A stretch of DNA of 39,547 bases from a virus, in IMG/VR virus record IMGVR_UViG_3300009192_000025, positions 1 to 39,547 of that record. One strand, written 5' to 3'. The notes below the pieces were generated by a model, which was given only the letters and a program-made list of their open reading frames with translations, was not told the DNA's origin and searched no databases. This document shows, one piece after another, positions 24,937 to 27,954 of the stretch (its first letter is position 1; the number at the start of each line of letters is the position of its first letter). The translations under genes were made by a program, and so were the position numbers.

Positions 24937-25299
24937 TCAGTCGCCTGATCTGGCCGCCAGTGCCTCGCTTGCCGTCTTGGCCTGATGGCAGGCCTTGCAG
25001 ATCGCTTCGAGGTTGTCAGCGGCGTCTGTGCCGCCCTGAGCCTTACCCACAATGTGATCAACTTCAGTAGCTGGCGTGATGCGGTTCATGCGCTCGCATG
25101 GCTGGCAGAGGTAGCGATCACGCTTGAGAATCGCGTTTCGCAGTCGCCGCCATGGCCGACCACCTCGGCCTTGCCCACCTCGCTTACTCTTGCCCCAGTT
25201 GATAGCGCGATCGGCATGCGCCTCGCAGTACCCGTGAGAGGCAGTTGTCTTGCCACCACACATGGGTGCCTTGCAGGGTCGCGGTGGTTTGATAGGCAC
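24937..25299 (-). CDS. HNH endonuclease (packaging-associated)
   Basis: 120 aa. HNH core: EVDHIVGKAQGG with His82, DNLEAIC, and CKACHQAK (Cys101/Cys104/His105), plus structural CQPC (65/68) and N-terminal Cys9/14/25. It lies directly upstream of terS/terL. In HK97-like cos phages such an HNH protein works with the terminase to cut cos, so cos packaging is likely here (established for the family; inference for this phage). Confidence 0.93.
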   Translation of the reverse strand: MPIKPPRPCKAPMCGGKTTASHGYCEAHADRAINWGKSKRGGQGRGGRPWRRLRNAILKRDRYLCQPCERMNRITPATEVDHIVGKAQGGTDAADNLEAICKACHQAKTASEALAARSGD

Positions 25300-25406
25300 A
25301 CAAAGCCCTCAACATGTAAGTCGATAGTCAAATTTATTATTATTGATGCAACTAATTTAGTGCACCAAAATTGACATGATGTATCTACAGGAGAAGAAAG
25401 ACCGAG

Positions 25407-25616
25407 ATGACGGCTCCTAGCAGCATCCGCGTGGTCATCAGAGGCAACCAATGGGGCGTGAAGCGAGAGGGAAAAACGCAGTGTATCAGGTGCTTTACAA
25501 CACAATACGATGCGATTGATTACGCCCGCGGCCTCGCGGCCCGACTGGGAACCAAGCTCGTAATTGAAGCGAGAGGCGGAAACATTGTTGATAAACACTC
25601 ATCATTACTACAGTAA
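25407..25616 (+). CDS. DUF2188-family small protein
   Basis: 69 aa. Matches the DUF2188 pattern: 'VVIRGNQWGVKREGK' then 'AIDYARGLAARLGTKLVIEARGGNIVDK'. Function of the family is unknown. AGGAG lies 13 bases upstream of ATG, with a weak promoter candidate TTGATG (25343-25348)/CAAAAT (25366-25371). It is read against the late operon, alone between the HNH and Rz1 genes, with two related genes nearby. Confidence 0.8.
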   Translation: MTAPSSIRVVIRGNQWGVKREGKTQCIRCFTTQYDAIDYARGLAARLGTKLVIEARGGNIVDKHSSLLQ

Positions 25617-25662
25617 GAACTACACATATAGCGAACACGGCTTTCGATAGCAGGAGCCTTTT

Positions 25663-25854
25663 ATGATGCTCGAGCTATATCTCAATCGCTGCTCTGACGG
25701 CTGGGCATTAAGTCGTGAGCTCGAGGATGTACCTCACATTACATTTGAGCAGGAAGACGAATCCCGCGAGTAAGCAAAGACTCTCGCTCATCTCTAGGGC
25801 TACAAGCTCTATGTCATCTACGGCGGAGGGAACGGGCGAGATCGTGTGCTCTAA
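25663..25854 (+). pseudogene. DUF2188-like gene interrupted by two in-frame stop codons
   Basis: ATG at 25663 follows AGGAG (25652-25656). One frame encodes MMLELYLNRCSDGWALSREL... up to TAA at 25771-25773, continues AKTLAHL to TAG at 25795-25797, and then GYKLYVIYGGGNGRDRVL to a final TAA at 25852-25854. The three segments together make a coherent ~61-residue DUF2188-like protein (GWALSRE at the start, 'AKTLAHL-GYKLYVIYGGGNGR' at the end), so two point changes have apparently broken it. If only the first part is made, the product is 36 aa. A recoded or read-through gene is a formal alternative. Confidence 0.65.
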
Positions 25855-25859
25855 CTGAA

Positions 25860-26159
25860 TCACTCATTCGCCACGTCTTCTGGACCATCCGCCAACCGTT
25901 CGAGGATCGAGGCTGTCGCCGTGCGGTCAGCATTGAAGCGCCGGCGCTGGGACTCATAGTCGGCCAGCAGGCTGAGCAGATCACGGTTGGATGTCACTGG
26001 CCGGTCAGGGGCGGGCAGTGAATTAAGCAGGTAGCTCGGCACTTCGGGTGTGCACTGCCACTCAGTGGGCATCACCACTGGCTTGCTCTCGAAGGCGCTG
26101 CAGCCACTCAGCAGCAGCGTCAGGCACAGGCCGGTCAGCCCAACCCCCAGTCGGCGCAT
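25860..26159 (-). CDS. Rz1-like o-spanin lipoprotein (complete copy)
   Basis: 99 aa from ATG 26159 (MRRLGVGLTG), GGAGAG upstream. The lipobox is LLLSGC (Cys20 after lipid cleavage), so it is an outer-membrane lipoprotein. Proline-containing periplasmic part: PTEWQCTPEVPSYLLNSLPAPDRPV. It pairs with Rz to fuse the inner and outer membranes at lysis. Unusually, its 5' part overlaps only a remnant of Rz; the complete Rz gene lies 482 bp away, beside a truncated second copy of Rz1. The C-terminal ~50 residues are helical and charged. Confidence 0.88.
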   Translation of the reverse strand: MRRLGVGLTGLCLTLLLSGCSAFESKPVVMPTEWQCTPEVPSYLLNSLPAPDRPVTSNRDLLSLLADYESQRRRFNADRTATASILERLADGPEDVANE

Positions 26160-26216
26160 CGTCTCTCTCCATCCGGCGTGCAGCTGCCCGGGCAGCCAGA
26201 ATTGAACGGTCATCGA
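26053..26216 (-). repeat. Copy A of the duplicated Rz/Rz1 overlap (~164 bp)
   Basis: About 96% identical to 26535-26698 (offset 482 bp), with a handful of mismatches near 26143-26152 and at the end. In the Rz frame copy A still encodes the Rz C-terminus (DRSILAARAAARRM ... QASGDAH, stop at 26062-26064) but has no start for it, so here Rz is a remnant while Rz1 is complete. Confidence 0.9.
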
Positions 26217-26241
26217 GCGCACCTCACTTCAACAGCGACCC

Positions 26242-26271
26242 CTGATAATACACTTTGGTATTAGATACAAT
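26242..26271 (+). promoter_or_regulatory. Candidate promoter for the DUF2188-like gene between the spanin copies
   Basis: -35-like CTGATA (26242-26247), 18-nt spacer, -10-like TACAAT (26266-26271), about 44 bp before the ATG at 26315. It reads opposite to the late genes. Confidence 0.5.
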
Positions 26272-26314
26272 ATTCAGGCTTCAAGAGGCTTGTTCATTTA
26301 TCTAAGGGCTGCAC

Positions 26315-26497
26315 ATGCCGCATACCATCATGGTGGTCGCCAAATCGGGCGCATGGTTAGTAAAAAGTGATGAGAAGAAGACCGACACTAGGTTATTTAC
26401 CAATCAGAAGAGCGCCATTGAGTTTGCCAGGAGACTCGCCAAAGACAGAAGAGGAGAGCTAGTCATTCAAACCAAGGCCGGTAAGATTGGACTGTAA
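26315..26497 (+). CDS. DUF2188-like small protein inside the spanin duplication
   Basis: 60 aa: 'IMVVAKSGAWLVKSDEKK' followed by 'KSAIEFARRLAKDRRGELVIQTKAGKIGL', the same strand-helix-strand layout as DUF2188 proteins. AAGGGC precedes the ATG. It lies on the strand opposite to all lysis genes, in the ~318 bp that separate the two copies of the Rz/Rz1 overlap, and has its own promoter candidate. It is more AT-rich than the lysis genes. Function unknown. Confidence 0.75.
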   Translation: MPHTIMVVAKSGAWLVKSDEKKTDTRLFTNQKSAIEFARRLAKDRRGELVIQTKAGKIGL

Positions 26498-26527
26498 ATA
26501 GCAAGCCAAACCGGAATGCAACACCCA

Positions 26528-26641
26528 TTACACACACTGCCACTCAGTGGGCATCACCACTGGCTTGCTCTCGAAGGCGCTGCAGCCACTCAGCAGCAGC
26601 GTCAGGCACAGGCCGGTCAGCCCAATCCCCTGTTGGCGCAT
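26528..26641 (-). pseudogene. Truncated Rz1 copy embedded in the Rz gene
   Basis: From ATG 26641 (MRQQGIGLTG, lipobox LLLSGC) the frame matches the complete Rz1 up to PTEWQC, then leaves the duplicated segment and ends at TAA 26528-26530 after 37 residues. It keeps the signal and lipobox but lacks the periplasmic spanin region, so it is probably non-functional, or makes a tiny lipoprotein. Confidence 0.8.
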
Positions 26642-26698
26642 CGTCTCTCTCCATCCGGCGTGCAGCTGCCCGGGCAGCCATGATTGAACGGACATCCA
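26535..26698 (-). repeat. Copy B of the duplicated Rz/Rz1 overlap (~164 bp)
   Basis: Direct-repeat partner of 26053-26216. In this copy Rz is complete and Rz1 is truncated, the reverse of copy A. Confidence 0.9.
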
Positions 26699-26969
26699 GG
26701 GTGCGGCTGGCTTCGCGTGCCTCCAATGCGACGGACAATCGCTTCATCTGATTGCCGTAGTGCAACGCCATCAACTCGAGCCCGCGGTTGACTGCCTTCT
26801 CGGTGGATAGCTCAGCCTTGAGGTCATTGGCTTGCTGCTCGGCCTTGGTCGCCTCATAGGTCTTCATCGCCCCCCAGCCCAGCACCACCGCCATCAGGAT
26901 GACCTCGACCTTCACACCTGATATCAGCTTGCGGCCCCATGCCCACGCGGTCGTGATCAGTGCAGCCAT
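26544..26969 (-). CDS. Rz-like i-spanin
   Basis: 141 aa. N-terminal inner-membrane anchor (residues ~18-36, VKVEVILMAVVLGWGAM), then a long periplasmic coiled coil (EATKAEQQANDLKAELSTEK ... QMKRLSVALEAREASR) as in lambda Rz, ending QASGDAH. It overlaps the holin stop by 13 bp (26957-26969). Its 3' end is in the duplicated segment and overlaps a truncated Rz1. The functional partner is expected to be the complete Rz1 at 25860-26159. Confidence 0.88.
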   Translation of the reverse strand: MAALITTAWAWGRKLISGVKVEVILMAVVLGWGAMKTYEATKAEQQANDLKAELSTEKAVNRGLELMALHYGNQMKRLSVALEAREASRTLDVRSIMAARAAARRMERDDAPTGDWADRPVPDAAAEWLQRLREQASGDAH

Positions 26970-27310
26970 CGTCCCAGCACCTTATCGAAGATGGCGTCAG
27001 ACTTGGCACGCAGCCACTCGACACCGAGGAAAGCGATCGCGGCCCCGATGGCCACGGCCATGTCCTGATCCAAGCCGCCCCAGTCCAGCAGCGGCTTGAG
27101 CGCCAATGTCAGGCCACCCACCAGGGTCGCCTCGAGCAATGATTTGTAGAAGCGGCCACCGGCATGCAGGCCGCGCAGCAGCGCGATCACGAATGACAGT
27201 CCCGCTGCATAGAGGTTGGCTTGATATGGCTGTAGCCACTCCAGCAGCATCTGCCATGTCGATGGGTCGCGGTGTGGCATATCGGCGGGCTCGTGGTCGT
27301 CATCATGCAT
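26957..27310 (-). CDS. Holin, lambda-family type
   Basis: 117 aa, CAGGAGGCCAT before ATG. After a polar N-terminus (HDDDHEPADMPHRDPSTW) there are three hydrophobic segments: NLYAAGLSFVIALLRGL (~51-67), ATLVGGLTLALKPLLDW (~82-98) and MAVAIGAAIAFLGVEWL (~104-120 of the pattern), ending in a basic tail. This matches the lambda-type phage holin family that opens the inner membrane for the endolysin. It is placed between endolysin and Rz. Confidence 0.88.
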   Translation of the reverse strand: MHDDDHEPADMPHRDPSTWQMLLEWLQPYQANLYAAGLSFVIALLRGLHAGGRFYKSLLEATLVGGLTLALKPLLDWGGLDQDMAVAIGAAIAFLGVEWLRAKSDAIFDKVLGRWLH

Positions 27311-27354: not shown

Positions 27355-27891
27355 TTATACGATGTGGCCGCCAGCACGCACGTACACGCCCAGCAGCTCA
27401 TCGGTATCAAGCTCACGCTGGCCATACCCTGCCCCCGGCAGGCTCGCCCAGATGCGCCGGCAAGCATGGGTGGCCTCAGCGATGCGCCCGTCATACACCA
27501 GTTCCAATGCCCGGCACTGGCGGATCAACTGTTTGGCAGCTTCATCCTGCGAGGCCGGCGAGAAGTCCGGCAAGTGGAAGCGCTTGGCCAGGTCATCCCA
27601 CGTCCCTACCAGGAACTGGTATCGGCCAGCTGCCGTGCTGTGGATGTTGTACGACTTCAGCCATACCGACTGGCGGGGGTGATCATCGAAGCCATCGAAG
27701 GTCTTGCCACCCACCAAAACGTCATAGCCCTCGATCGAGCTGAAACGTGGCGTGCCCTCGGCATAGGCAATGGTGTCCAGGAAGGCCGCCAGATTGCTGG
27801 CGTCATCAGCTGCCGGATCAACAGGCGCGTCAAAGCCCACCAGCTCGACCTCATCGAGCCAGTGCGCGGGGGCATGTGCAGGCATGGGCAT
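27355..27891 (-). CDS. GH104 endolysin (lambda R-type lytic transglycosylase)
   Basis: 178 aa from ATG 27891 (MPMPAHAP); a start at 27939 is possible but weaker. The sequence closely follows lambda R: FLDTIAYAEGT with catalytic Glu45, EGYDVLVGGKTF, DDHPRQSV, HSTAAGRYQFLVGTWDD, DFSPASQDEAAKQLI, IWASLPGAGYGQ. It cleaves peptidoglycan to a 1,6-anhydro product. There is no signal peptide, so release depends on the holin. The N-terminus is ~25 residues longer than in lambda R. First gene of the lysis set. Confidence 0.95.
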   Translation of the reverse strand: MPMPAHAPAHWLDEVELVGFDAPVDPAADDASNLAAFLDTIAYAEGTPRFSSIEGYDVLVGGKTFDGFDDHPRQSVWLKSYNIHSTAAGRYQFLVGTWDDLAKRFHLPDFSPASQDEAAKQLIRQCRALELVYDGRIAEATHACRRIWASLPGAGYGQRELDTDELLGVYVRAGGHIV

Positions 27892-27909
27892 CACCGGGAA
27901 GCAGATACG

Positions 27910-27933
27910 AAAAGCCCCGCCAGATGGCAGGGC
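27910..27933 (-). terminator. Intrinsic terminator just before the endolysin gene
   Basis: On the minus strand GCCCTGCC-ATCT-GGCGGGGC is followed by TTTT (27910-27913 as A4). It stands between the two small unknown genes and the endolysin and resembles the hairpins at 16393-16416 and 28496-28522. Confidence 0.8.
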
Positions 27934-27954
27934 ACGCAAATCACATGGAACACA

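Follow-up and report, generated by a model that had tools for sequence, protein, structure and literature searches.

The lysis cassette of a temperate phage related to prophages of Cobetia-type bacteria has very probably been entered by an accessory gene of the DUF2188 family, with a duplication of the spanin gene overlap turning an overlapped spanin pair into a separated one. The DNA analysed is the whole of IMG/VR virus record IMGVR_UViG_3300009192_000025 (39,547 bases, henceforth referred to as the window), in which a repeat search found two direct repeats of 165 bp each that are 96% identical and offset by 482 bp. Both copies carry the overlap of the spanin genes Rz and Rz1, and between them lies the DUF2188 gene, here called D1. 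An earlier note on this DNA had described the two direct copies at this offset with an opposite-strand DUF2188-like gene between them; both observations held, the repeat length of about 164 bp given there being corrected to 165 bp. Because no further exact repeat of at least 24 bp occurs anywhere in the 39.5-kb record besides the Rz/Rz1 overlap pair, the repeat pair is far beyond chance. On the minus strand the genes are arranged in the order endolysin, holin, Rz, copy B of the overlap, D1 region, copy A, Rz1, a variable interval, HNH endonuclease and terminase (Table 1). The window phage encodes an integrase, a CI-like repressor and a CII-like activator and is temperate; one of the prophages closest to it is found in the chromosome of Cobetia amphilecti N-80.

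Table 1. Position of the features in and around the lysis cassette of the window.
Feature	Position	Strand	Evidence or remark
HNH endonuclease, downstream neighbour ahead of terminase	24937..25299	-	PF01844 E 2e-13
D2, second DUF2188 gene, Rz1-HNH interval	25407..25616	+	PF09954 E 2e-13
D3, third DUF2188-type gene, pseudogene in the window	25664..25855	+	tblastn 63% over 62 aa; ORF lists; sequence
Rz1, outer-membrane lipoprotein spanin, LysC-like, 99 aa, complete	25860..26159	-	PHROG 456 Rz-like spanin E 2e-7
Overlap copy A	26053..26217	-	start and ribosome-binding region of intact Rz1; remnant of Rz 3' end
D1 leader, AT-rich, 43% G+C	26218..26314	+	base composition; one promoter-like match CTGATA-18-TACAAT
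D1, DUF2188, 60 aa	26315..26497	+	PF09954 E 7e-12; PADLOC PDC-S16 E 3e-13
Truncated Rz1 in copy B, 37 aa	26528..26641	-	ORF list; compared with intact Rz1
Overlap copy B	26535..26699	-	3' part of intact Rz and start of truncated Rz1; 96% identical to copy A
Rz, inner-membrane spanin, 141 aa, complete	26544..26969	-	PHROG Rz-like spanin families E 1e-4; adjoins holin
Holin (Phage_holin_3_1)	26957..27310	-	PF05106 E 7e-21
Endolysin	27355..27939	-	PHROG 90 endolysin E 9e-45

Both Rz and Rz1 match PHROG spanin families, and the position of Rz in the lysis cassette, in the order endolysin-holin-Rz, fits a two-component spanin. Rz is 91-96% identical across related loci, and a hydrophobic stretch, VILMAVVLGWGAM, spotted by eye, may be its N-terminal transmembrane segment. 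The full Rz1 begins with an ATG at 26159 within a longer open reading frame (25860-26222), and its match to the LysC family PF23793 (E 8e-4) falls under the curated Pfam cut-off. The truncated Rz1 in copy B has retained the signal peptide and the lipobox LLSGC, which the full Rz1 also has, and has lost the remainder, its stop codon lying just beyond the repeat. In copy A, the other frame carries a remnant that corresponds to the last 51 residues of Rz (91-141; 94% in tblastn). The open reading frame coordinates thus agree with what had been claimed from first inspection, namely that one copy holds a complete Rz and a truncated Rz1 and the other a complete Rz1 and a remnant of Rz, so that each of the overlapping genes keeps one whole copy and the two now stand apart. 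With intact Rz and intact Rz1 no longer overlapping, the spanin architecture of the window is a separated one.

Related phages without the insert show what the locus looked like before. A single simple Rz/Rz1 overlap with no gene inside is present in 11 related lysis loci (L002, L003, L004 with its near-copy L005, L006, L007, L008, L010, L020, L027, L028 and L072). Alignment with such relatives was the check that the earlier note had named, and it came out as predicted there: compared with L008 and with L003, the window has gained exactly 482 bp, seen as one gap with no other of at least 20 bp, and no gene-less relative carries two copies of the overlap. When the flanks of the insert were joined, a gap-free alignment of 1892 bp to L008 was obtained (94.45% identity), in which the full, overlapping Rz and Rz1 genes reappear. 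In more distant Halomonadaceae, Rz1 starts inside Rz at 26 of 27 further Rz/Rz1 loci; the lack of overlap at the remaining locus (L067) is only apparent, as the Rz assigned there is a weak match interrupted by a stop codon, which leaves the other 26 as the scorable loci. Because all 11 close and all 26 scorable distant Halomonadaceae loci overlap, sequence comparison places the simple overlap as the ancestral state and the two-copy state as the derived one. Searches of GenBank phage records with the lysis region returned short or distant matches only, and with Rz1 a single distant spanin, that of Halomonas phage vB_HmeY_H4907.

D1, which lies on the opposite strand to the lysis genes, scores 45.8 bits against PF09954, where the gathering cut-off is 22. 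It also matches, over residues 1-58, the PADLOC candidate phage defence family PDC-S16, for which the library shows no curated cut-off; since PDC-S16 is a candidate family, ‘defence gene’ is for D1 a lead only. The G+C content of the insert is 46%, compared with 60.5% for the whole record. A scan of the D1 leader for promoter-like sites found one where 0.8 are expected by chance, which is no better than chance, and scans for terminator-like sites found none downstream of D1 and none on the lysis strand within the insert. No relatives of D1 or D2 were found among GenBank phage records, and an IMG/VR search with D1 returned only one further carrier of the arrangement (L009). Between the window and this second carrier, D1 has a dN of 0.18 with saturated synonymous sites and the D1 protein is therefore under purifying selection. 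The predicted D1 structure (pLDDT 76) has the order beta-beta-beta-alpha-beta-beta, and a Foldseek search with it gave no match at E 0.001 or better. Neighbours of the model in VIA-align, which included an anti-CRISPR protein and YegP, had Z scores of at most 5.9 and were set aside as too low to use.

The second carrier (IMG/VR 2751185720) has the same layout as the window, with Rz, overlap, opposite-strand DUF2188 gene, overlap and Rz1 in succession. A sequence 100% identical to it is present in the bacterial genome G018 (L029) and was counted as the same prophage. The D1 proteins of the two carriers are 70% identical and are sisters in a tree of Halomonadaceae DUF2188 proteins (support 98/98). 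In L009 the duplication reaches further on both sides, including about 16 bp more of Rz1 on the Rz1 side (shuffle p 0.001) and about 25-30 bp more on the Rz side (p 0.003 to 0.012 against L008; not seen against L002). Misassembly often goes back to direct repeats, and an assembly artefact had been named in the earlier note as something that could undo the claim. However, an artefact or a chimeric contig is hardly credible here, as the layout recurs, with a D1 protein that is 30% different and with differing junctions, in an independent record and in the genome G018, and as each copy in the window has private substitutions. Because a divergent prophage shares the arrangement with a diverged D1, we consider an assembly artefact to be excluded for practical purposes.

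Compared with the single-copy sequence of L002, copy B of the window differs at three sites and copy A at four, none of which is shared, and L002 is close to the common starting point of both copies. The mismatches between the copies had been put down to either time since duplication or recombination between related phages, a choice that is resolved in part by the finding that each copy has its own three or four changes from L002. In the doubly coding part of the repeat (positions 58-155), the copies of both phages together contain six substitutions: four leave the protein of the retained gene unchanged and alter that of the lost one, two alter both proteins and none does the reverse. All possible substitutions in this part comprise 70 that are silent only in Rz and 79 that are silent only in Rz1. 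The direction of the copy-specific substitutions is suggestive and not significant, with four discordant sites and a probability by chance of about 1 in 16. In the 58 bp of copy A upstream of the Rz1 start, a stretch relieved of coding for Rz, L009 has 10 changes, six of which alter Rz, and the window has three. Judged by these substitutions, the pattern fits decay of freed sequence, with Rz using copy B and Rz1 using copy A.

The interval between Rz1 and the HNH/terminase genes (25300-25855 in the window; also in L002, L004, L010, L027 and L028) differs in gene content from phage to phage and is a hot spot for accessory genes. It contains D2 and D3 in the window, a KilA-N protein in L004, and low-G+C genes of 225, 215 and 106 aa in L002, L010 and L027, respectively. 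D2 and D3, two more DUF2188-type genes beside Rz1, had gone unmentioned in the earlier note. D2 is found in the same place in L003, L004, L005 and L008 and, like D1, matches PDC-S16; D3 is interrupted by two in-frame stops in the window and is open in L003, L004, L008, L009 and L028. What sets D1 apart from the genes of the hot spot is its point of entry, which lies one gene higher up and called for a duplication.

We next consider whether the two carriers go back to one event. Because D1 is far more diverged between them than the other genes, with saturated synonymous sites compared with a dS of 0.05 to 0.34 in holin, Rz, Rz1, HNH endonuclease and terminase small subunit, one simple vertical history is insufficient: either the cassette is older than its surroundings and its flanks were renewed by phage recombination, or related cassettes came more than once. 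We favour a single origin of the two carriers, which we hold to be about twice as probable as separate ones, on the grounds of the same site and strand, the sister proteins and the similar 3' flank. That two different DUF2188 genes entered the same hot site independently, with the overlap duplicated each time, is possible though doubtful. Such independent gains would suit the contrast between D1 and its flanking genes in synonymous divergence, as well as the D1 leaders, which do not align, the difference of about 16 bp between the Rz1-side junctions, and a likeness just upstream of copy A that is not significant in most shuffle tests. However, the carriers share strand and site, the extents of their duplications overlap, their D1 proteins group as sisters among the Halomonadaceae DUF2188 proteins, and the 3' flanks of D1 resemble each other as far as the junction (shuffle p 0.0065). 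Taken as tests for a common origin of the inserts, the shuffle tests support the 3' side and are weak on the 5' side.

A purely local origin, in which a unit of overlap, Rz1, D3 and D2 was duplicated in tandem and Rz1 through D3 was then deleted from the first unit, would make D1 a diverged copy of D2. This sequence of events yields the order and strands that are observed, D1 and D2 are both DUF2188 genes, and duplication followed by deletion was proposed for other spanin pairs by Kongari et al. (PMC6139136). We nevertheless consider it unlikely, since D1 and D2 do not form a supported group in the tree, their leaders have no visible similarity and their identity of 38-44% is far under the 96% of the repeats. 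Repeats of 165 bp at 96% identity are ample for homologous recombination, and both states of the locus are found in close relatives. The copies might for this reason be kept as a switch, whereby recombination excises D1 and restores the overlap and the population alternates between the two; this is very improbable, as the repeats are associated with neither a recombinase nor site specificity, as excision of D1 would be a permanent loss, and as a single gain explains both states in different phages equally well. An improbable variant is that the overlap copies act as homology arms through which the DUF2188 cassette can be lost, regained by relatives with a single overlap, or swapped for another allele. 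If true, this would explain why D1 has diverged far more than its surroundings, and an accessory cassette would be spreading through the one place in the genome that is bound to conservation in two reading frames.

Returning to the favoured account, we propose that a ‘moron’ gene of the DUF2188 family entered a temperate Cobetia-type phage just behind the stop codon of Rz, within the overlap, and that the rearrangement would have left the overlap on both sides of D1, separating the pair with neither protein lost. Copy B would then supply the C-terminus of Rz, and copy A the ribosome-binding region, start and signal peptide of Rz1. We infer that one or two illegitimate joins, or else a tandem duplication and a subsequent deletion, produced the two copies. 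Because loss of the Rz C-terminus or of the Rz1 start would presumably abolish lysis, only variants with a complete Rz and a complete Rz1 could lyse, and both copies would have been kept. The selective part of this mechanism is supported by work on lambda, in which lysis is abolished by nonsense changes at residues 151 and 152 of Rz, a protein of 153 residues (PMC5295617), and in which a synthetic separated Rz-Rz1 pair revealed no functional advantage of the embedded form (PMC6139136). In the window phage, both spanins are probably made and functional, the late transcript would read through D1 into Rz1, and D1 may have a promoter of its own that is active in the lysogen, and may help the host, perhaps in defence. 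Recombination between the copies could remove the repeat, and the two-copy state may be unstable.

Spanin genes may be embedded, overlapped or separated, and families that include two of these forms are few (PMC6139136); the present case is a variant of the already known transition from overlapped to separated. The nearest parallel is T5 and Shivani/phiR201 (Kongari et al. 2018, PMC6139136), where, as here, a gene lies between spanin genes that overlap in a relative (about 700 bp). The two cases differ in the intervening gene, a GIY-YIG endonuclease encoded on the same strand in Shivani and an opposite-strand DUF2188 gene in the window, and in the fate of the overlap: the window keeps both copies, whereas in Shivani the i-spanin has had its end replaced and the o-spanin its first residues. 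We looked for a duplicated overlap in Shivani and found none: the match to T5 is split there, and of the 70-bp overlap of T5 at most 15 bp is present on both sides. Duplication of the locus has also been invoked for the change of architecture between the Jersey and FSL_SP-031 spanins (PMC6139136); as published, that is a hypothesis for a change from separated to overlapped with no surviving duplicate, in contrast to the two surviving copies reported here. The arrangement resembles, in a natural form, the ‘decompression’ by which phage engineers remove overlaps from genomes, although in phiX174 (PMC11527146) the decompression was engineered and the old start codons were disabled, whereas the present one arose naturally and the truncated Rz1 retains its start. 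With morons, D1 shares a position between genes that are adjacent in relatives (as seen from the exact 482-bp gap to L008 and L003), a lower G+C content and the opposite strand. Descriptions of morons do not usually mention a duplicated target. A search of the literature, covering open papers, found no report of duplicated spanin overlaps, and this is to our knowledge the first case in which a duplicated overlap survives on both sides. Seven papers name DUF2188, though in neither title nor abstract. How gene overlaps become separated is usually guessed from the end states; here an intermediate survives, together with both overlap copies, the intervening gene, relatives that still have the ancestral overlap and another example in which decay has gone further. 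This suggests that duplication is a natural route by which overlapping genes can be decompressed, and the two freed single-frame copies allow the relaxation of double coding to be watched. It also adds a candidate defence gene to what is found in the lysis cassette of Cobetia-type prophages.

Some further features were observed in the related phages. The 225- and 215-aa genes (L002:5599-6276 and L010:5598-6245, both on the minus strand) have a G+C content of 30-33% and lie directly behind Rz1; they matched no family above the Pfam cut-off and nothing in PADLOC. Another DUF2188 gene is located in L002 (6940-7134, minus strand), just after a match to the start of the terminase small subunit. In several of these phages, the last residues of Rz1 differ with the neighbouring insert.
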